Shown here in pieces: positions 1-28,502 of a DNA stretch of 42,771 nucleotides. The notes below the pieces were generated by a model. That model saw nothing but the letters and a program-made list of their open reading frames with translations, had not been told where the DNA came from and made no database searches. Source of the stretch: Planctomycetota bacterium. GTDB lineage: Bacteria > Planctomycetota > Phycisphaerae > WQYP01. Within the stretch, counting starts at the first letter, position 1. Each line of letters begins with the position of its first letter. The position numbers and the translations under genes are program-made. The DNA is taken from positions 1-42,771 of the forward strand of contig JAKBMM010000023.1 of the NCBI GenBank assembly GCA_021831565.1, read 5' to 3'.

Positions 1-1020
1 CCGGGCAATCTCCATCGAATCGCCGCATATCCAGCGCGGCTTGATTCCTTTGCGGCATATCGCCTCCGCTTGGTGGCGGTTCGCTTCAATCTGCTCGGCC
101 CGAAGATCAACGCCGGTGTATTCACGCAGCAGCCGGGCGCCCACAATACCACGAACCGATCCGCCGGCGAATGGATCAAGAACAGTACCGCCGGGCGGGC
201 AGAACCAGCGAATGCAAAGCTCACAAAGAACCGGATCGAAAATCGACGTGCCCGACAGCCCGGTTTCGTCAATGGGTTTACTGTTCGATCCCATCCAAAC
301 CGTATTCTTGCCCGATCCGCCGCCGGGCCGAACGTTGCGGGCGGCTATAGCGTTGAGCGAGGCGATGCCCTTGAAGCAAAGGCCGCGTTTTCCATAACCA
401 AACCGCTGGGCCGCTTCCGAATAATCCAGGGCATTGCTCTGGCGGCCAAGCTCGGACTGGATGCCCAGGGCGATCCAGCTTTGTTTGCGGCGCTGCCACC
501 AGCCTTGCCGGGCGTCAAGCACGCTGAACGGCGATACGCCGAAAGATTCGGACAGCGCGCCAGTGTTACTTCCCGGCTCGGCGTTACCATCGGTGCCAGG
601 TTCGCCGGGCAAGTTAATCGGGGAATTGAGCATCGCCTTTTCTTCATCGGTAAAATCCAAGAGCCGGGCAAGCTCCGGCGGAAGCGAGCCGAGTTGCTCA
701 AGCAAGCGGTCGGAGTCCCATGAAGCCAACTCGCCGCTGCGGTTATCGACAAGGGCGTAGCCTCGCGCCGCAGCGCCGGTAAGACGAGTCCGCACAACCG
801 CGATGCTCTTCCAGCCCAAGGCTTGCGCCGCCAGAAGCGTGCCGTTGCCGGCAATGACCATGCCCTCGGCGGTTATGACGATGGGTTTTTGCTGGCCGAA
901 GCGTTGCAGGGAATTTTTGATCGTGGCCAGGTTGCGCGCGTTATGCGCCCGCGCGTTTTGCGGATCAAGTCGGATGCTCGCCAGCGGCACACTTTCAATT
1001 TTCAGGCTTGGCGCTTGCAC
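1..1020 (-). CDS. ParB-like nuclease domain fused to DNA methyltransferase, 3' end outside the window
   Basis: A 340-codon reading frame runs off the left edge of the window. The N-terminal ~100 residues read as a ParB/sulfiredoxin-like domain: LASIRLDPQNARAHN, then QKPIVITAEGMVIAGNGTLL, the usual 'I.GNHR'-like box. After an acidic linker, residues ~285-320 carry the methyltransferase AdoMet site, PPGGTVLDPFAGGSVRG followed by YTGVDLRAEQIEANR. The catalytic DPPY/NPPY motif would lie beyond base 1. Such fusions are common in phages, where they modify DNA or protect it from restriction. The GTG start at 1020 has a GGAG eight or nine bases upstream and overlaps the end of the terminase-like gene by 26 bp, so the two are probably translationally coupled. 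Target base (N4-C or N6-A) cannot be told without the missing part. Confidence 0.75.
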   Translation of the reverse strand, partial: MQAPSLKIESVPLASIRLDPQNARAHNARNLATIKNSLQRFGQQKPIVITAEGMVIAGNGTLLAAQALGWKSIAVVRTRLTGAAARGYALVDNRSGELASWDSDRLLEQLGSLPPELARLLDFTDEEKAMLNSPINLPGEPGTDGNAEPGSNTGALSESFGVSPFSVLDARQGWWQRRKQSWIALGIQSELGRQSNALDYSEAAQRFGYGKRGLCFKGIASLNAIAARNVRPGGGSGKNTVWMGSNSKPIDETGLSGTSIFDPVLCELCIRWFCPPGGTVLDPFAGGSVRGIVGARLLREYTGVDLRAEQIEANRHQAEAICRKGIKPRWICGDSMEIAR

Positions 1021-1531
1021 CGTTTTCTTTCTCCGTGGTTTGCGCGTAGCTTTGTAAATGCCGATATACATCATCCACAAAGCGCTGCAAGTCGCTCTGT
1101 ATCCGCGCTTGCTTATCCGGCGGCAATCCCCAAAGCGTCGTCAATCCAGGCAGGCTTTCCAGCGCCGCCTTGACGATCCCGGCATGTTCCACGAACATAT
1201 CTTTGACCGCCGATAGCGGATAGGTTTTTCCCTCGCGCTCCAATCGCTCGACTTCAAGCTGATAACGCCGAGCAAGCCACAACTGCGTTTTCACTTTTGC
1301 CGCGACCAATTCCCGGCTGCCCGCCATCGCCGGACGACCAGGATCGCCCGTTTTAGAGTTAACCTTCATCCACGAGGCAAGCTCTGGAAGGCTCAAAAAG
1401 TATTGGCCGTTGCGCTTTTCGCAAGGTGCGCCTTTTTTGAGATAATCCCGCAGGGTTTGGACGTGTATGTCCAGCGTGGTCGCCGCGTCCAAAAGGCTGG
1501 TATCACGCTTGATTTTCAACTTCGCACCCAT
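995..1531 (-). CDS. Terminase small subunit-like (Nu1-type) DNA-packaging protein
   Basis: The 178-residue protein starts with a winged-helix-type segment (LLDAATTLDIHVQTLRDYLKKG, residues ~10-32), then a basic linker (GDPGRPAMAGSRELVAAKVK) and a helical stretch rich in Leu/Arg/Glu (LWLARRYQLEVERLEREGK). That order, an N-terminal HTH that reads a packaging site followed by a coiled region that binds the large subunit, is the one known from lambda Nu1-like small terminases. ATG 1531 is chosen because an AGGAG lies 8 bases upstream. A TTG two codons earlier is too close to that site. It sits directly before the ParB-methyltransferase in a leftward phage module; the large terminase would be expected left of the window. 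An alternative is a generic phage MerR-like DNA-binding protein. Confidence 0.55.
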   Translation of the reverse strand: MGAKLKIKRDTSLLDAATTLDIHVQTLRDYLKKGAPCEKRNGQYFLSLPELASWMKVNSKTGDPGRPAMAGSRELVAAKVKTQLWLARRYQLEVERLEREGKTYPLSAVKDMFVEHAGIVKAALESLPGLTTLWGLPPDKQARIQSDLQRFVDDVYRHLQSYAQTTEKENGASAKPEN

Positions 1532-3480: not shown

Positions 3481-3768
3481 TCAATTCAGTTCCGTCGGCG
3501 ACCACAACCGCGAATCCAGCGGCCAGCGGCTCCATGCCTGGGCGCCGCTGCGGCCAACGTAAAGCGTAAGCTTGGCCGGGGCTTCACCGGTCGCCATCCG
3601 CGATGCGGCCTCGGCCCGCAATAGGATGAGAATCTGCTGCTTGTGTACCTTGGCGTAGGCGAGCAGTTCCGGCGTGAGCAAACTCTTCTTTGCCCGCAGA
3701 ACCAGTTCGGGGCCATCGGCCAGAACCTTAATTCCCCGCTGTCGAAAAATATCCAGTATCGTGGTCAT
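3481..3768 (-). CDS. TubC N-terminal docking domain-like protein
   Basis: A 95-residue protein. Residues 1-50 (ILDIFRQRGIKVLADGPELV, then LTPELLAYAKVHKQQILILL) fit the TubC N-terminal docking fold: a short helix, a beta pair with 'G..L....', then LTPELxxxxxxHKxxILxLL. In PKS/NRPS systems this domain mediates subunit docking. Stand-alone versions also occur beside DUF3987 or primase genes in mobile elements, where the function is not known to me. The start overlaps the stop of the DUF3987 gene by ATGA (3765-3768), so the two products are made together and may interact. The C-terminal 45 residues (WSRWPLDSRLW) are unassigned. Confidence 0.6.
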   Translation of the reverse strand: MTTILDIFRQRGIKVLADGPELVLRAKKSLLTPELLAYAKVHKQQILILLRAEAASRMATGEAPAKLTLYVGRSGAQAWSRWPLDSRLWSPTELN

Positions 3769-5891
3769 AGCCTCTCCTCCATGTCTTGGACCGCCGCAAA
3801 CAGGTCGGACTCGACCTGCCGGGCCTCCTCCACGGCGGCGGTGTCCTCGTCCATCGCCACCGGCACGGCGTCCGCCGGGGGCGGTTCGTCCGCCATGACA
3901 TCGTCTGCTGGATCATATTGGGGGGGGGTATCGGTATCGGTCGCCGGGGTGTCTACGGTGTCTACGTCTACGGAACCTGCCGAATCCTTAAGGTTTGAGG
4001 GGGTACCGTAGACCGTAGACGTGTAGACGGGCCGGATCACGAACCGCTCGGCGGGCCTGCCGCCACGGGGGCCGGGCGGAGAATCGTCCCATCGTCCGTG
4101 GCCGGCGCCAACCAACTCCGACAATGCCGCGCGGGCGACTCCCACGGGCTGGTAGCGGCGGGACGCCTGCGCCAGCTCACGCGGGGTGATCTTGCCGCCG
4201 CGCCGCCGGATCAGCTCGATCAGCTCGCGCTGCCGCCGGTCGTCGGTGTCCTCCCCATACAGCCTCTCGGCCTCGGCCCGGAACCACGTCGCCAGCGTGA
4301 TACCGGCCCGCATCGCCTCGCCATCCACGATGGCGGCGGCGGGGGTGCGGGCCAGCATCATCACCAGCGCCAGCCGGGCCGCCTGCTCCTCGATTTTCGC
4401 CAGGGCCGCCGCCACCGGGCCGTCCGACTCCGCCGTGCGCCGGGCATTGGCGTCGTACCACTGTCGCCACTGCGCGCGAGCCCCGGCGTCCATATCCAGC
4501 GTCACCGGCTCCGGCTCGCCGTCGGCATCCACCCCCATCGGTATCGCCAGCAGACCATCCACCGTCCGCGCCCACGCCTCACGGGTAGAGATGGATACAT
4601 CCGCATCCGTCCACTTTTTCGGCGGCGCCGCGGGGGCGGCAAAGAGAATCCGCGCCATGAGTCCGGACTCGACGCGCTCGCGCGTCATGGCCCGGCGGAG
4701 TATCGCGGGCTGTATGCCCCCGATGATGGATATCGCCGCGCGCGGTATATGGATGATGCGCTGGTCGCCGGTCTTGCGGTTGACGGTGAATGATTCAGCC
4801 CTATGTATACTTAGCCATCGCTGCATATCTCCGGCATCCCGGTAGGCATCCATACCTTCCAGCCAGCCGCCCAGCTCGTCGCGGGCCAGCAGCACGCCGC
4901 GCGGATTCATGGCCAGTACCACCGCCATCGCCTCCAGGGTCGTGTCGTCCAGCACATACTGCGCGCAGACGGGGGCCGTCGGCTCCTCCGGCGGCTCTTC
5001 CTCGCCCGAAGACTTTTTCCAGCGGGCGACATCCCGCTCGTGGCGCAGCGTGTCGGCGCGATGTGTCGCCACAGCGTCCGCGTAGGCTCGGAAAGCGTCG
5101 CTCTGGTGGCGGCGCAGGGGGCGTAGCGCGTGCTCCATCGGCGGGGATTTGCCCGTGCCGCTGGGGCCGACCACACACGCCCAGATCAGGGCCGGCGCGT
5201 GCCAGGTATCCCGCAGTCGCAGCGTGCGACTATTGCCTATTGCGGCGGCGGCGGTGGCCAACATCGGCAACGCCACGTACTCCGGCGGGATACCCATGAT
5301 ACGCGCGTACTCATTTACATATCGGCGCATCACCGGCGGCAGCGCGCCGACCGGGAATGGTTCCCGCGGCGCAGGCGACTCGGACGGCTCATCCGGCGCG
5401 GCGGGCGATGCGGCGGCGGCAAGCTCGGTCGCCAGCGGTGCGATGTCGGAGGCTGGCCACCCGGCGGATGCGGCCTGCCGGACGCGGTGGGCGGCGATAA
5501 TGATCTCGCGCCGGCGCTGCGCCTCCCGCACGCGCTCGAGCCCGGGCGTCCACACCGACCTCATGGCCAGCCCGGTCAGTGCCTCGCGCAGCCACGACTC
5601 CATCTCCGGCGTGCGCAGATTCCGGCGGCGCAGCTCGTCGGCGACCACCGATGGAGCGAGGTCGCCGTCGCGGCGATAGAGCTGCTCCAGCACCGGCCAG
5701 AGCTGGCGACAGTACGTATCGGTATAGCTAGATAGATCGATCCCGGCGCCCAGTGCCTCGGCCATGCGGGCCGGATCCTGGAGGACGGCGGCGAGCAGGT
5801 CTCGCTCGGACGCGGGCGCGGCGGGGAGTGCCTGCGGCGTATCGTCGGCGGCGGCGGCGGGACGCGGTCGTGCGGTGGTGGTGGCCGTCAT
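3765..5891 (-). CDS. DUF3987-type P-loop protein with DnaB-N-like front domain (primase/helicase-like)
   Basis: The 708-residue protein starts at ATG 5891, overlapping the HTH gene's stop by ATGA. Residues ~28-95 (ASERDLLAAVLQDPARMAEA ... LAPSVVADELRRR) resemble the N-terminal domain of DnaB helicase. Residues ~180-640 are DUF3987-like: Walker A GPSGTGKS at 242-249, a Walker B-like GVLLARDELGGWLEGM at 332-347, and the conserved IGGIQPAIL segment further on. The C-terminus has a winged-helix-like stretch (ELIELIRRRGGKITPRELAQ) and an acidic, Thr/Asp/Val-rich tail. DUF3987 proteins are replication-associated in phages and plasmids; the biochemical activity is inferred. GC content here is visibly higher than in the flanking phage genes (runs of gcggcggcg), a sign of separate ancestry. 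Confidence 0.75.
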   Translation of the reverse strand: MTATTTARPRPAAAADDTPQALPAAPASERDLLAAVLQDPARMAEALGAGIDLSSYTDTYCRQLWPVLEQLYRRDGDLAPSVVADELRRRNLRTPEMESWLREALTGLAMRSVWTPGLERVREAQRRREIIIAAHRVRQAASAGWPASDIAPLATELAAAASPAAPDEPSESPAPREPFPVGALPPVMRRYVNEYARIMGIPPEYVALPMLATAAAAIGNSRTLRLRDTWHAPALIWACVVGPSGTGKSPPMEHALRPLRRHQSDAFRAYADAVATHRADTLRHERDVARWKKSSGEEEPPEEPTAPVCAQYVLDDTTLEAMAVVLAMNPRGVLLARDELGGWLEGMDAYRDAGDMQRWLSIHRAESFTVNRKTGDQRIIHIPRAAISIIGGIQPAILRRAMTRERVESGLMARILFAAPAAPPKKWTDADVSISTREAWARTVDGLLAIPMGVDADGEPEPVTLDMDAGARAQWRQWYDANARRTAESDGPVAAALAKIEEQAARLALVMMLARTPAAAIVDGEAMRAGITLATWFRAEAERLYGEDTDDRRQRELIELIRRRGGKITPRELAQASRRYQPVGVARAALSELVGAGHGRWDDSPPGPRGGRPAERFVIRPVYTSTVYGTPSNLKDSAGSVDVDTVDTPATDTDTPPQYDPADDVMADEPPPADAVPVAMDEDTAAVEEARQVESDLFAAVQDMEERL

Positions 5892-6163
5892 GGCATCACC
5901 GCCGATCCGCCGGCCTCGCCGGCGAAGTGGCCCTGCGGGTCGCGGCGCAGCTCGCCGGCATATCCCTCGCGCGCGGGCAGCCCACGTATGTATGCAGCTA
6001 CATCTGTCTCCCGATACCGGACGAGGCGCCCCAGTCGTACCGCGCGGATGGCGCGGCTCGCGGTCAGCCGCTCTACCTGTCGGCGGGACACGCTCAGGAG
6101 CCGCGACAGGTCGCCCACGGACATGAGCCGGTCCGGGGCACTCGGCGGGGTGGTGGTACGCAT
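5888..6163 (-). CDS. Excisionase-like helix-turn-helix protein
   Basis: A 91-residue protein. Residues ~14-66 (RLMSVGDLSRLLSVSRRQVE, then IRAVRLGRLVRYRETDVAAYI) fit the HTH_17/MerR-like excisionase fold, with the final 'R[YF]...D...YI' typical of the family. The start at 6163 is supported by GGAG eight bases upstream; an in-frame extension further upstream has no such site. It is the first gene of a coupled HTH-DUF3987-TubC cluster (ATGA overlaps at both later junctions). Members of this family either aid excision or autoregulate the element's early operon. With the attachment-site candidate only 0.7 kb away, both are plausible. Confidence 0.65.
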   Translation of the reverse strand: MRTTTPPSAPDRLMSVGDLSRLLSVSRRQVERLTASRAIRAVRLGRLVRYRETDVAAYIRGLPAREGYAGELRRDPQGHFAGEAGGSAVMP

Positions 6164-6844: not shown

Positions 6845-6885
6845 TGTTTGTAAGTGCTTGAATTTCAAGTGGTTGCGGTTTATAA

Positions 6886-6935
6886 GCATCGGATTGTCGA
6901 TCCGAAGGTTGCGGGTTCGATCCCCGTCGCCCTCG
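6886..6935 (+). other. 3' half of a tRNA-Asp(GTC) gene; probable attachment site (att) of the element
   Basis: The sequence contains a full anticodon arm (TCGGA-TTGTCGA-TCCGA, anticodon GTC), a 5-base variable region, a T-arm (GCGGG-TTCGATC-CCCGT) and the 3' acceptor strand CGCCCTC plus discriminator G. The matching 5' acceptor GAGGGCG and a D-arm are absent upstream, where the sequence is phage-like, so this is not a complete tRNA. A retained 3' tRNA half at the edge of phage genes is the usual mark of tyrosine-recombinase integration. The intact gene should be at the element's other end, left of this window. The antisense reading gives the well-known spurious peptide GDGDRTRNLRIDNPM. Confidence 0.7.
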
Positions 6936-6939
6936 TTGG

Positions 6940-7050: not shown

Positions 7051-7582
7051 ATGCCCTACCAAACGTACATTCCCAAGTACGGCCACCACAAAGCCAGCGG
7101 CCAAGCCGTCGTCCGCTTGGACGGCCGTTACTTTTACCTAGGTCCCTACGGCAGTGCGGCCAGCCGGCAGGAATACGACCGGCTGGTAGCGCATTGGCAA
7201 ATCGCCGGTCGTTGCCTGCCCGAGGCTGGACCCAAGAGCGTAGCGCAGATCATGCTGGCCTCCGGGCGCTACCTGCACCAGTACTACCACTGCCCGCTCA
7301 AAGGGTTCCACAAGGACATCCACGCGTGGAAGATGGCCGTGCGGCCGCTGAAGGCCCGCTACGCCCACATGCGGGCCTTGGGTACCTTGACCCGGAACCG
7401 ATGTGTCATACGCCTGAAGGACAAACCAAATCCTGGCCACAGCCAACAGGACCGCGGCATCCGCTAGGGCACCCAAAAAGTCGGCAGGAACAGTTGAGGA
7501 ACCAACGTTCACGGTCATCAGCGATGCCACGCCCCTTCAGGAGACGGCCTTGAAACTTCTGGGTTTGTACCCAGTACGGTGA
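7051..7582 (+). pseudogene. Eroded tyrosine recombinase (integrase) N-terminus plus unrelated-looking 3' fragment
   Basis: ATG 7051 has GGAG seven bases upstream. The first ~110 residues (PKYGHHKASGQAVVRLDGRY, FYLGPYGS, EYDRLVAHWQIAGRCLPEAG, then a helix ending VRPLKARYAHMR) match the N-terminal arm-binding/core-binding region of planctomycete-type phage integrases. Homologues are ~350-400 residues with a C-terminal R...HxxR...Y catalytic domain. Here the frame loses similarity near 7380 and stops at 7467. A second frame (7418-7582) reads EEPTFTVISDATPLQETALK and ends LLGLYPVR; it looks like a true C-terminus of some protein but I cannot assign it. No catalytic domain is present, so the gene is dead as a recombinase. 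Confidence 0.6.
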
Positions 7583-24268: not shown

Positions 24269-25114
24269 CTAATTCGCCGGCGCCGTTGTTTTTGCAACCC
24301 GCGCCGCCGGGCGCCGCCGGGCCTTGGCGCTGGGAGACCGGGCGTTAAGTTTTTTCCAATTCGGCAGACACCGTTCAATCGCCGGCAGGGCGGCGCGCAG
24401 GAACGCCGCGATTTGTCGCCGCGCCACGGCGCGGGTACACGGGCCGCGCACGTCGATTTCGATTTTGGCGTCGTAGCCGTACTTGCTGCGGCGGCGCCAG
24501 AACAGTTCGCTCACCTGCTGGGGATCGGCAACGTAGCGTCCGTCTACCTGAAAGGTGTAGGCGGTGTTGATGTACCGCCCGCCATGCGTCTGATTGATGA
24601 TCAGCGGCAGACCGGAAAAACCGCTTTCCGGCACGGCAAACGATAGAAATCGCATGGGCATGTTGGATACCGTTCCATTGGCGTGGGGGACGTTGTGAAT
24701 CACGATCAACGAGTCATAGATGCGTTTGAGGCCGATGCCGATCCAGCAGACATTCGGCACATGAGGGGTGGCGAAATCGGTCGGATAGTAGTTGAGATTC
24801 AAGGACACAATCGCGCCCGGCGCGTGGAGCGGCAGGCGGCTGTCCCAGTATTTGCGCAGCAGGTATTCGTGCGTACCGAGCACCTGTACGACATCCGCGC
24901 TGAGCTTGCTGTCCACCCATCCCGGGCGCACCCGGAACGGCGGTAAAACTTTCGGCAGGGTATACAACGGCCTTTGCAGCGGCGTGCGCAGTTTCTGGAG
25001 CACCACGTGAAAAGACTTTTGCGCCAGAACAAGCGAGACCAGTCCGCCGACAAGTATCGCCAGAGCGACCACGAGCGGCAGATATCGCGCCGGAATTGTT
25101 TTCGGATCGCTCAT
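24269..25114 (-). CDS. EpsI-like (DUF3485) exosortase-associated protein
   Basis: A 281-residue protein with an N-terminal membrane segment (YLPLVVALAILVGGLVSLVL) and an extracytoplasmic domain. Features shared with EpsI/DUF3485 proteins are an early VVQVLGTHEYLLRKYWD segment, strand VSLNLNYYPTD, and HVPNVCWIGIGLK around the family's conserved H..P..C. The central FSGLPLIINQTHG and RYINTAYTFQVDGRYVADP continue the domain. The tail is Arg/Ala/Lys-rich. The start overlaps the exosortase stop by ATGA (25111-25114). In other bacteria EpsI is either fused to or next to the exosortase and is needed for exopolysaccharide or protein sorting. Similarity is moderate, so the name rests on both sequence and position. 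Confidence 0.65.
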   Translation of the reverse strand: MSDPKTIPARYLPLVVALAILVGGLVSLVLAQKSFHVVLQKLRTPLQRPLYTLPKVLPPFRVRPGWVDSKLSADVVQVLGTHEYLLRKYWDSRLPLHAPGAIVSLNLNYYPTDFATPHVPNVCWIGIGLKRIYDSLIVIHNVPHANGTVSNMPMRFLSFAVPESGFSGLPLIINQTHGGRYINTAYTFQVDGRYVADPQQVSELFWRRRSKYGYDAKIEIDVRGPCTRAVARRQIAAFLRAALPAIERCLPNWKKLNARSPSAKARRRPAARVAKTTAPAN

Positions 25115-26145
25115 GACGCTTTGGCTCCCAACGGTGCGGATGGCTGCCCGGCCCGCTCCTCCACCAATAGATTCGACGCAATCAGGTCGATGATCCACGC
25201 CGCCCCGATCTGGAGCAAAAACGCCGGGATCAGCATGAGCAGACCGAGGCTCGCGTGGGTGCTTCCCCGCGCCCATTCGGAGCCGGCCGTCACAAAAAGT
25301 ACGCCGGTTAAGGTGACACGGAGTGCATTGCAGGCGATGGCGATCGGCAAAGCGCACAGGGCCAGCACTATTTTCTGCCACATGGGCCGCTGGCTGGAAT
25401 AGGCCAGTGCGATGGCCAGTGCAAAAAAAGCCGTCAGCATCCGTATCCCGCTGCACGCCTGCGCCACGTTGAGAGATTCCCAGTGCGTGCCCACCTGAAT
25501 GTGAACCTGCGTGGCCGTGCGAATGGCGTTGACGCCGAACAGCGGCAGCAGGTGAACGCCCGCCGATGCGGACAGGTATTGCAGCGGAGTGGTGAACTTG
25601 ACGTAAAGAGCCTGCGGCGGATTAATCATGAAAATAAGATAACAGATCGGTAACCAGAGTATTTTCATCTGCTCCCACCCCAGCAGCCAGAGCACGAGTC
25701 CGAAAAGCACCACAAACATGCTCAGATGCGAGAACTGAATCTGACCACAGATCAGGAACAGCGTCTGGACGGACACGCCGAATGCCAGCAGGGCCAGTCC
25801 CAGCGGATGGTGCTTCACGGGCAGGCTTTGGAGCGTCGGCCATTGCAGATAGACAAAAAAGGCGCTGATCAAGGGTATCACAAAACCCATGCTGAAATTA
25901 GGGTTGCTGTACCAAACGGCCAAAAGCTGAAGAAAATTGATTCGATAGAGCAATAGGAACGCCGCCGCCACCAGCCCCAGAAGCGCCCATTGTCCGGGTG
26001 TTGCGCCGCCGGAAACCCGCGCGATTTGAATTGGACCCGTCCGCGTATAGTCAAAGCGCATCTGCGGCGTATCGGCGTTGCCGGTCGCACTGGGCGCGGG
26101 GGCGTGTCCATTCACCGCGGTTACTTCGGTTCTTCGCCATTTCAT
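25111..26145 (-). CDS. Exosortase (membrane transpeptidase)
   Basis: A 344-residue polytopic membrane protein with about eight hydrophobic helices. The catalytic triad of the exosortase family is clear: C231 in NVAQACSGIRML, R276 in ACNALRVTLTG and H297 in GSTHASLGLLML. Exosortases cut PEP-CTERM-like tails and attach proteins to the cell surface or polymer; the substrate tail motif for this one is not known. ATG 26145 has GGAG eight bases upstream. It follows the Wza-like gene by 84 bp and is coupled to the EpsI-like gene. No protein with a C-terminal PEP-type tail is encoded in this window, so its targets are elsewhere. Confidence 0.92.
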   Translation of the reverse strand: MKWRRTEVTAVNGHAPAPSATGNADTPQMRFDYTRTGPIQIARVSGGATPGQWALLGLVAAAFLLLYRINFLQLLAVWYSNPNFSMGFVIPLISAFFVYLQWPTLQSLPVKHHPLGLALLAFGVSVQTLFLICGQIQFSHLSMFVVLFGLVLWLLGWEQMKILWLPICYLIFMINPPQALYVKFTTPLQYLSASAGVHLLPLFGVNAIRTATQVHIQVGTHWESLNVAQACSGIRMLTAFFALAIALAYSSQRPMWQKIVLALCALPIAIACNALRVTLTGVLFVTAGSEWARGSTHASLGLLMLIPAFLLQIGAAWIIDLIASNLLVEERAGQPSAPLGAKAS

Positions 26146-26229
26146 GGATTCCGCTCCGCCTGGCCGCCACATGTCATCTGGTGAATTTTAACATGAAGGC
26201 GCTTAGGCGCAATAAGGATTTACACTATC

Positions 26230-27846
26230 TTATGGCGGCTGAATAATGGTCGGCTGAATGTAAAAGTTCCGGTCATAGGTAAAGCCAAAACCATAACTGG
26301 CGGCAAATCCGTTGCGGATAACCGCCAGGGGATAGGCGAATACATCCGTACCGACGTTGAGCACATCATTGGGTTTGAGGAATATATCCGGCTCTTGGCC
26401 ATCAAAAATGGCCTGCAGGTTGACCTGGATGATGGTTTCTTGGTTACGCCCGATGCGGCGAATCAATTCGCAGCGGCGCGGAATAGCCAGTGTGCCCAGA
26501 TTGCCGGCGGCGGCGACCGCCATTTTCAACGTGATTCTCTGGCCGGTCATGCTGTAGACACCGGGCCGATTCACATTTCCCATGACATAATAGTATTTGG
26601 GTTCCACCGCCGGCACATTGATGATATCGCCGGCGTGGATCACGATGTTGTAGCGCGGGTCTCCTTCGCGCAGCTTCTTGATGGGAATCCGTATGATCTT
26701 TTGCGCCAGATATAACGGCGCGTGCGGTTTTTTACTCCGGGCATTGACGAAATTGTAGACGAGCGGAGGCGCCGGGAGAACTACCGGGCGGGTGGCGGCC
26801 GGCGCGGGGCGGGTGGCGGCTTTCATTTTGACCCAATGATGGTTCAGATATACATAATTTGGCGCAGGCGCCGTGGCGGGTGGAGAAACCGCGCGCCGCA
26901 ACAAGCTCCGCAAATTCTCCGTTGGCCGCGTGGACGGCGCCGGTCGGGTGGAGGTTTTCTCGCCAAGCCTCCGGGCGATCTGTTCGAGCATCCGCGCCGG
27001 CGAAGAGCTTGTTCCTGTCGTTTCCGCCGCGCCGGCCTTCGGTCTCGCTGCGCCGCCAGGCCGCGCTTTCGGCGCCGTCTTGGCGGATTCGGGGCGAATC
27101 ACGTAGAGCCAGCGCATGCCCGGCTGGAGCGGCACGTCGCCCGCCAGCGCCAGCGCATCGAGCAGGCGGAAGTCCGGCGACATGATGTTATAAGTGCCGG
27201 GGTGCAGCGCGGCCCCAATGACTGAAAACACTCTGCGCCGAGCCTCGGTCAGGGCGATGTTCACCTGCGGACCGGGCTGGTGGGGACCGGGAGGCGACAT
27301 CTGCCCGCTTTGGATCAGTTTCTGTATAATTACGTCGCGAAGCCGGCGGGTCGTTAAGCCCGCCGCATGAATGGTTCCTATGAAATCGAGAGTAATATCG
27401 CCTTGTGTATTGATCTGCCGGGTCTGCACCGATTCCTGGCCGGGAACCACCAGTTCAAACACGGAAACAGTGACCACATCTCCCGGCCCGAGCAAATAAG
27501 GCTTATGAGTGGGAAGCAGATCCGCCGCGGTTGGCGGTACCGAATCTTTCCAGGGATGCGCCGGCGGATCATCCACGGCCAGGGAGTCGAGAATCGGCCA
27601 GGTCACCGGCTGCACGCGCCCCCAGGGGTTGGCCTTGTCAAACCGGCCCACTTCCGACGGGTTGAGAAACGAGTTGCGAAGGTTCAGGTAATTGCAGCCG
27701 ACCAGAGAACCGGCCGCACCAGCCAGCAGGGCCATTCCTATCACTTGATACAACGCGCGACGGCACCACATGGCGTGTAATTTTTTCACGAAGAAGCTCG
27801 CGAGGGACCACCGCGGCTCCAAACTGCGAGTTTCCATCCGACCCAT
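26230..27846 (-). CDS. Wza-like polysaccharide export lipoprotein (Poly_export/SLBB)
   Basis: The 538-residue protein has a long signal sequence with lipobox LVGC (C51), then the polysaccharide-export domain: YLLGPGDVVTVSVFE, VQTRQINTQGDITLDFIGTI, HAAGLTTRRLRDVI. A Pro/Ala/Thr-rich insert (~residues 250-350) follows. SLBB-like soluble-ligand repeats come after it (YNIVIHAGDIINVPAVEPKY, YYVMGNVNRPGVYSM, NDVLNVGTDVFAYP). Wza-type proteins form the outer-membrane channel for exopolysaccharide. ATG 27846 has GGAG nine bases upstream; an internal Met at 26 would give a more usual 26-residue signal. It is the first gene of the leftward EPS/exosortase locus, and its upstream region carries palindromes. 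Confidence 0.9.
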   Translation of the reverse strand: MGRMETRSLEPRWSLASFFVKKLHAMWCRRALYQVIGMALLAGAAGSLVGCNYLNLRNSFLNPSEVGRFDKANPWGRVQPVTWPILDSLAVDDPPAHPWKDSVPPTAADLLPTHKPYLLGPGDVVTVSVFELVVPGQESVQTRQINTQGDITLDFIGTIHAAGLTTRRLRDVIIQKLIQSGQMSPPGPHQPGPQVNIALTEARRRVFSVIGAALHPGTYNIMSPDFRLLDALALAGDVPLQPGMRWLYVIRPESAKTAPKARPGGAARPKAGAAETTGTSSSPARMLEQIARRLGEKTSTRPAPSTRPTENLRSLLRRAVSPPATAPAPNYVYLNHHWVKMKAATRPAPAATRPVVLPAPPLVYNFVNARSKKPHAPLYLAQKIIRIPIKKLREGDPRYNIVIHAGDIINVPAVEPKYYYVMGNVNRPGVYSMTGQRITLKMAVAAAGNLGTLAIPRRCELIRRIGRNQETIIQVNLQAIFDGQEPDIFLKPNDVLNVGTDVFAYPLAVIRNGFAASYGFGFTYDRNFYIQPTIIQPP

Positions 27847-27897
27847 GATCTACATCTCCGAACAGGGCTAGGCATACCTAAGCATAAGAAAAAATGA

Positions 27898-27936
27898 GCG
27901 GGACGTCCCGCCGCCGCGATCCTTGGTTCATGAACC
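27898..27936. promoter_or_regulatory. Two perfect palindromes upstream of the Wza-like gene
   Basis: GCGGGACGTCCCGC (27898-27911) and GGTTCATGAACC (27925-27936) are perfect palindromes 13 bp apart, 50-90 bp upstream of the Wza-like start. Read leftward, the first is followed by TCATTTTTTCTT and could also act as an attenuator (five-bp stem, ACGT loop). The second overlaps the rightward promoter candidate at 27923-27952. Both look like regulator-binding sites for the EPS locus or the divergent gene. Confidence 0.4.
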
Positions 27937-27952
27937 CTCTATTGTGTATAAT
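27923..27952 (+). promoter_or_regulatory. Rightward promoter candidate in the Wza-phosphoesterase spacer
   Basis: TTGGTT (27923-27928), 18 bp, TATAAT (27947-27952). It points to the metallophosphoesterase gene 550 bp away, so a long leader would be made. The GGTTCATGAACC palindrome sits on the -35/spacer, where a bound repressor would block it. Confidence 0.4.
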
Positions 27953-28010
27953 CTTATCCGCTGACCAACCCGCGCCGGAGCGCAAACCGGCTGGATCGCC
28001 GGCACAACAA

Positions 28011-28036
28011 TCCGCAGTATAACTCCGCAGTATAAG
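28011..28036 (+). repeat. 13-bp tandem duplication
   Basis: TCCGCAGTATAAC (28011-28023) and TCCGCAGTATAAG (28024-28036), identical at 12 of 13 positions. Confidence 0.85.
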
Positions 28037-28293
28037 GATACCACGAGATTGCCCCGGCCTCAATGGTGTCCGCATATTCAAGCATTCATCGCCTGGTGTC
28101 AAGCCATACCTGAAAAAATTGCCGCCCGCAGCACTACTATTTATCGGCCATCGGACTGATGAAAGTTAACCCGATACCACTCGCTTTGTTGAGGGATGGC
28201 ATTTTTTCGAGTGAACCCGGAGGAACCGGATGGCATGAATGTTTCCGCTAAGACGGCGTGCCGGACGACTCGCCTCTTTTCCGACTCTTCCCT

Positions 28294-28319
28294 GCCTACT
28301 GTCAGGGCCTACTGTCAGG
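28294..28319 (+). repeat. 13-bp exact tandem duplication inside a hairpin
   Basis: GCCTACTGTCAGG occurs twice without a gap (28294-28306, 28307-28319). The flanks CCTGCC and GGCAGG pair with each other, so the two copies sit in a potential stem-loop. Confidence 0.85.
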
Positions 28320-28502
28320 CAGGCCGGAAAATTGCCACGCGTTTGTGATCGAAGGCCTGTGGCGGCCTCGCTATCTCATCAAACAGGCGCTAACATGGAA
28401 ATGAGCCGTGGCCTCGGTACTGGCGCCTCGCCGCACGGCGCCGGCCACAGCCCTGTAAATTCAGGCGGTTGCTCCGCACCCAGGCACGCCGGGATCGCTT
28501 GT

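Follow-up and report, generated by a model that had tools for sequence, protein, structure and literature searches.

Genes at the locus

The window, the whole 42,771-nucleotide stretch analysed, is contig 78 (C78) of a 2.8 Mb genome. The phylum is Planctomycetota; the survey genome G103 and the Planctomycetota isolate OFTM49 have their TubC_N matches at these same places. Near its start lies a module of three genes on the reverse strand. The operon's first gene (5888-6163) encodes an HTH_17/excisionase-family DNA-binding protein of 91 aa (Pfam HTH_17, 40.2 bits; NCBIfam TIGR01764, 39.9 bits). It is followed by a gene for a 708-aa DUF3987 protein, a putative replicative helicase/primase-type ATPase (3765-5891; Pfam DUF3987, 226.9 bits; PHROG DNA helicase, E=7.5e-36), in which the Pfam match spans residues 202-546 and profile positions 3-363 of 364. 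The third gene (3481-3768) encodes a stand-alone TubC_N protein of 95 aa, a beta-hairpin docking (betaHD) domain at residues 7-51 that scores 31.1 bits against a Pfam cut-off of 26. Both gene junctions are 4-nt overlaps, at 5888-5891 (HTH/DUF3987) and 3765-3768 (DUF3987/TubC_N), and all three proteins exceed the Pfam curated cut-offs, confirming the HTH-DUF3987-TubC trio joined by ATGA overlaps that the initial annotation had described.

The label "helicase/primase-like" is fair for the DUF3987 protein because of its PHROG match. DNA unwinding by the DUF3987 family is predicted only, as it also is in PMC5862659, which assigns DUF3987 a predicted role as the helicase of mobile-element replication. 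A DnaB N-terminal domain is found in the window protein only below threshold (Pfam, 16.1 versus 23 bits), and identity as a DnaB-type helicase is not met on that criterion. The N-terminal part (residues 7-152) has a second match at 37% identity elsewhere in the same genome (G000:C71:157852-158289). Following the conserved core is a low-complexity, probably disordered tail rich in Pro, Asp, Glu and Thr (3765-4050, reverse strand, boundary approximate), which closes with the predicted docking motif, or SLiM, QDMEERL (3768-3788, reverse strand). The motif is acidic, has a hydrophobic last residue and carries charges that complement the betaHD domain.

The TubC_N gene of the window is the only TubC_N match in its genome. 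The C-terminal part of its product finishes ...AWSRWPLDSRLWSPTELN and includes a segment, SRWPLD, that recurs in the relative L177; neither a zinc ribbon nor an integrase is attached. Identity as an NRPS/PKS assembly-line subunit is not met, the protein being a 95-aa stand-alone one whose partner is DUF3987 and not a carrier protein.

Base composition is uneven across the trio. The HTH and DUF3987 genes reach 72% and 70% GC (GC3 0.79-0.82), whereas the TubC_N gene (60% GC, GC3 0.71) is close to its neighbours, and GC3 falls from 0.82 in the DUF3987 core to 0.45 in the tail. The GC-rich part is the HTH gene and the helicase core, so the higher GC once ascribed to the whole module holds for these and not for the rest. 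Because the TubC gene itself is not GC-rich, composition is not taken as a main argument for exchange; the modular exchange read from GC-rich codon use is weakly supported in the window, although exchange is evident in another genome (see below).

The integrated element

The module occupies the tRNA-Asp end of an element integrated at tRNA-Asp(GTC). The 3' part of this tRNA gene marks the attachment-site end of the element (6885-6937, forward strand), and its 53 bp are identical to an intact tRNA-Asp gene that adjoins a tyrosine integrase on contig C20 of the same genome (G000:C20, about 24827-28416). A third copy of the site, 44 bp long, lies at G000:C53:42382-42425. A DNA methylase gene is interrupted both at the C20 end and at the start of the window. 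The two contig ends do not overlap, and it is by inference that the C20 and window parts are probably one element of roughly 10-11 kb. The same element carries a ParB-like/DNA methylase gene (window 1-855) and a terminase-small-subunit-like gene (window 995-1531). Together with the integrase and DUF3987 genes, these resemble the content of a phage satellite, a likeness that remains unproven; the parts are located on C20 and C78, the element spans the contig break, and capsid genes were not systematically sought. Searches of viral contigs, plasmids and phages for close relatives of the window proteins turned up almost nothing.

Past the tRNA fragment, and close to it, is a short ORF (window 7051-7467) without a significant family match in profile searches. 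It has what we take to be a resemblance to a planctomycete integrase N-terminus and is possibly the relic of another integration.

Pairing of TubC_N proteins with replicases

In 294 Planctomycetota genomes, TubC_N profile matches fall into two groups, giant frames of NRPS/PKS type and short stand-alone genes. The stand-alone genes lie directly downstream of a large same-strand ORF at 25 of 27 loci, and in 22 of those 25 the upstream partner is recognised, by profile or homology, as a mobile-element ATPase or primase type. Recognised partners comprise DUF3987, AAA_25, DUF3631, DUF3854 (with DUF927 in one), Toprim and one UvrD-like helicase; the three unrecognised ones are L074 (unscanned), L080 (weak AAA match only) and L085 (no family). 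Pseudomonadota have the same arrangement at 19 stand-alone TubC_N loci, where every upstream protein scanned (10/10) is a primase-helicase, a D5_N SF3 type among them. The pairing is thus seen in both phyla and involves several helicase/primase types that are unrelated to one another, a point that a survey of DUF3987 neighbours for TubC-like genes had been proposed to check.

The pairing is common and spans helicase types; it is not obligatory. Within the class of the window protein, 27 of its DUF3987 relatives were examined and 9 have a betaHD-like gene directly downstream; since most DUF3987 genes lack an adaptor, it is not essential to DUF3987 function. One stand-alone TubC_N gene (L061) has no adjoining helicase, and its downstream ORF looks by eye like a serine recombinase. 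A broad TubC alignment yielded no stretch conserved enough for scanning contigs, and a consensus-based contig scan returned only a few loci, one of which is the integrase fusion L105.

A shared C-terminal motif, probably for docking

In megasynthases, an N-terminal betaHD domain binds a short C-terminal motif of the preceding subunit, the last five residues of which form a strand along beta2; contacts include the salt bridges E28/R96 and R24/E98 and a Gly that packs on Tyr27 (PMC9113145, PMC6195595). The upstream proteins of genuine NRPS pairs in the survey end in REEGAI, EREEFVF, WEEVEL, RESGEL and similar sequences. Mobile-element helicases end in motifs of the same kind: FEEGVL, WGEEGEL, REVGEL, RERGTL, FEDGVI, DWEEVP and DYEEF. 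By a PSSM built solely from 19 NRPS motifs, element helicase tails score above control gene ends (p=4.7e-9) and also above control ends with an ATGA-type 4-nt overlap (p=3e-6). The window motif scores moderately (-2.2, with about 8 of 87 controls higher), and MEERL is only moderately typical of a docking SLiM.

A rigid six-residue PSSM overlooks shorter registers such as DYEEF, and a simple tail rule, along with covariation, was therefore used instead. The rule, which was written after the tails had been seen, demands a hydrophobic last residue and an acidic residue within the preceding five. It fits 19 of 21 DUF3987 proteins with a betaHD gene versus 2 of 26 without (p=5.5e-9). The window tail (...QDMEERL), charged with a hydrophobic last residue, meets this betaHD-partner criterion. 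At L096 the motif EDEWGSL was spotted first, and a divergent betaHD-like gene was found behind it afterwards. An exception is L097, where a DUF3987 protein ends in EYLDTEVF and the next gene, judged by eye, is DnaB-N-like and not betaHD.

Charge covariation between adaptor and tail

Covariation was assessed in 74 cognate pairs (55 element, 19 NRPS) by an unbiased scan for charge complementarity in which all betaHD columns were combined with all SLiM positions. The strongest three of the 204 couplings are 28 x -6, 24 x -2 and 28 x -4 (max-statistic permutation p<=0.0005). Two of them, 28 x -4 and 24 x -2, coincide with the two salt bridges seen in the solved Kj12 structure, since R96 and E98 are positions -4 and -2 in the 99-residue 6EWV chain. 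Arg or Lys occupies -6 in 12/13 pairs with an acidic betaHD residue 28 versus 0/26 with a basic one (p=3e-9), and element pairs alone give 9/10 versus 0/20 (p=7e-7). An aromatic betaHD residue 27 goes with Gly at -3 (p=7e-5 in element pairs). When the three charge contacts are taken together, the element pairs give 53 attractive combinations and 2 repulsive ones, a difference unmatched in 5000 re-pairings. These p-values are uncorrected for shared ancestry, and related sequences inflate them.

In the window pair, betaHD E24 and R28 face SLiM R(-2) and E(-4)/D(-6). The charges are complementary with reversed polarity, a reversal that also occurs in some megasynthases (PMC6195595).

Structure models of a homologue

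The structure models represent not the window pair but the homologue L083, translated past its stop codon; the window protein was not folded. In L083, as in L082, the adaptor is in frame past the helicase stop codon, so tail and adaptor can be folded as one chain. AlphaFold models the L083 adaptor as a helix, two strands and two helices (alpha-beta-beta-alpha-alpha). The docking domain superposes on the AerJ betaHD (8aqq) at 1.7 A rmsd over 51 columns (TMt 0.72), and also on EpoB and Bamb_5915. In a trimmed L083 chain, which offers no other sheet than the betaHD hairpin, the tail segment AWVDF stays a strand (pLDDT 69 overall). The model places the L083 tail as a strand on the betaHD hairpin, with moderate confidence at the strand itself (pLDDT about 62). 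Foldseek searches with the L083 models gave no match at E<=0.001; betaHD matches came at E about 1, which alone is not significant, and the search with the full model is uninformative because the docking domain is small.

Exchange of motors, and possible adaptor cargo

Two loci in one genome (G167) bear on exchange directly. L082 and L083 are 90% identical in their adaptors, 70% in their tails and 64% in their N-termini; their central ATPase cores are unrelated and belong to different families, DUF3987 and AAA_25. Here the motor has been exchanged and the docking parts retained.

Adaptors also differ in what they carry. A C-terminal zinc ribbon (CYxC...CxxCHPPxPG) is present on the adaptors L063, L075, L081 and L146, and L100, which has no adaptor, has a similar zinc ribbon fused directly to its DUF3987. 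At L105 (4935-6623, Planctomycetia JAPLNP010000625.1) a single protein joins the TubC_N domain to a tyrosine integrase, and the protein encoded upstream has the C-terminus GWEEGDL. About ten Planctomycetota loci have an integrase gene that follows the adaptor at a distance of at most 600 nt. Because of these zinc ribbons, the L105 fusion and the nearby integrase genes, recruitment of accessory DNA-transaction modules to the helicase via the adaptor is plausible but unproven.

Proposed mechanism and competing explanations

The initial annotation had suggested an adaptor role for TubC-like domains in replication proteins, and the recurrent pairing, the predicted interface and the covariation at known docking contacts now lend this good support. 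The TubC-like protein is best read as a betaHD adaptor docked to the C-terminal SLiM of a mobile-element replicative helicase/primase, to which a probability of about 0.8 is given in the absence of any binding or replication assay. The final five to seven residues of the DUF3987 protein, at the tip of a flexible tail, would form a short linear motif. This SLiM may join the betaHD hairpin as a third beta-strand along strand beta2, held, as in NRPS/PKS docking, by salt bridges between betaHD 28 and SLiM -4/-6 and between 24 and -2, and by the hydrophobic C-terminal residue. The adaptor would then tether an accessory part to the helicase non-covalently, whether its own C-terminal module, a zinc ribbon or, at one locus, a fused tyrosine integrase. 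The operon, the family assignments, the association, the motif and the covariation are computed observations. Physical interaction of the adaptor with the helicase tail is a strong inference made without binding data, and a role for the adaptor in replication, or as a link between replication and integration or excision, is a weak one.

The SLiM might instead be a by-product of translational coupling, in which a Shine-Dalgarno sequence and the ATGA overlap dictate terminal Glu or Gly and Leu and no docking takes place. Most pairs do overlap by 4 nt, and the Glu pair of many tails comes from a GAGGAG-like sequence; many tails gain Glu codons from the overlapping downstream ribosome-binding site, an effect that the controls lessen and do not abolish. 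Yet other 4-nt overlaps fit the tail rule in only 3 of 34 cases, two of which are TubC pairs initially missed, and DUF3987 genes that overlap other genes lack the motif. The L082 and L083 tails are alike despite gaps of 51 and 15 nt, and coupling leaves unexplained both the charge covariation with betaHD 24 and 28 and the link between Gly(-3) and aromatic residue 27. This explanation is largely refuted and is considered very improbable.

A second alternative, unlikely if somewhat less so, is that the TubC-like protein serves the element in DNA binding or regulation, its place in the replication operon being incidental and its Pfam match reflecting a shared small fold. The proteins are small, some have zinc ribbons, and DNA-binding genes abound nearby; such a role nevertheless fails to predict a shared C-terminal motif, the co-inheritance of tail and adaptor when cores are swapped, or covariation at the docking contacts. 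TubC_N takes its name from NRPS/PKS proteins, where most of its annotated copies are found, and genuine NRPS copies occur in the same genome sets; this might suggest a cryptic biosynthetic docking relic carried on the element by chance. The stand-alone copies, however, have replication genes as neighbours, with neither carrier proteins nor condensation domains beside them, and no other TubC_N match occurs in the window genome, which leaves this origin scarcely credible. Docking of a betaHD adaptor to the replicase tail remains the preferred explanation.

Relation to known systems and significance

The window pair and its relatives share several features with the betaHD/SLiM pairs of NRPS/PKS systems (TubC, EpoB, Kj12ABC, Bamb_5915, AerJ): a TubC_N match above cut-off, an alpha-beta-beta-alpha-alpha fold in the modelled homologue, a C-terminal SLiM on the product of the immediately preceding gene, and contacts of residues 24, 27 and 28 with -2, -3 and -4. 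They differ in that the partner in the elements is a helicase/primase and not a carrier protein, and in that the betaHD domain is stand-alone or integrase-fused (L105), not fused to a condensation-type enzyme. The primase-helicases of mobile genetic elements with DUF3987, DUF927, VirE, RepA and D5 ATPase domains have the same interchangeable ATPase cores; these are fused, and the available part of PMC5862659 describes no docking partner, whereas the window module adds a non-covalent adaptor. PICMI phage satellites (integrase, AlpA-like regulator, DUF3987/DUF5906 primase) are small integrative elements with an integrase, an HTH/excisionase-like gene and a DUF3987 replicase. As far as the accessible portion of PMC10803314 goes, PICMIs have no described betaHD adaptor and lack terS, whereas the window has a terminase-small-subunit-like gene.

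The docking mechanism is known from megasynthases, and its use in mobile-element replication appears to be undescribed in the open-access literature searched, where no paper was found that names TubC with DUF3987 or betaHD-type docking in mobile elements (subscription papers lay outside the search). A broader proposal, advanced tentatively and with less than even confidence, is that a portable betaHD/SLiM code is common to megasynthases and mobile-element replisomes and that, in the elements, it joins interchangeable accessory modules (zinc ribbons, an integrase, unknown ones) to helicase cores that can likewise be exchanged, and perhaps in this way links replication to integration or excision.

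The betaHD/SLiM pair is one of the chief means of re-engineering assembly lines for peptides and polyketides, and the literature consulted describes it in no other setting. Its use in mobile-element replication would make the docking code a general one, not specific to biosynthesis, and raises the question of which setting came first. The elements would offer numerous orthogonal pairs from nature whose specificity rules can be read, and a testable partner would be at hand for DUF3987 and its related helicases, which are uncharacterised.
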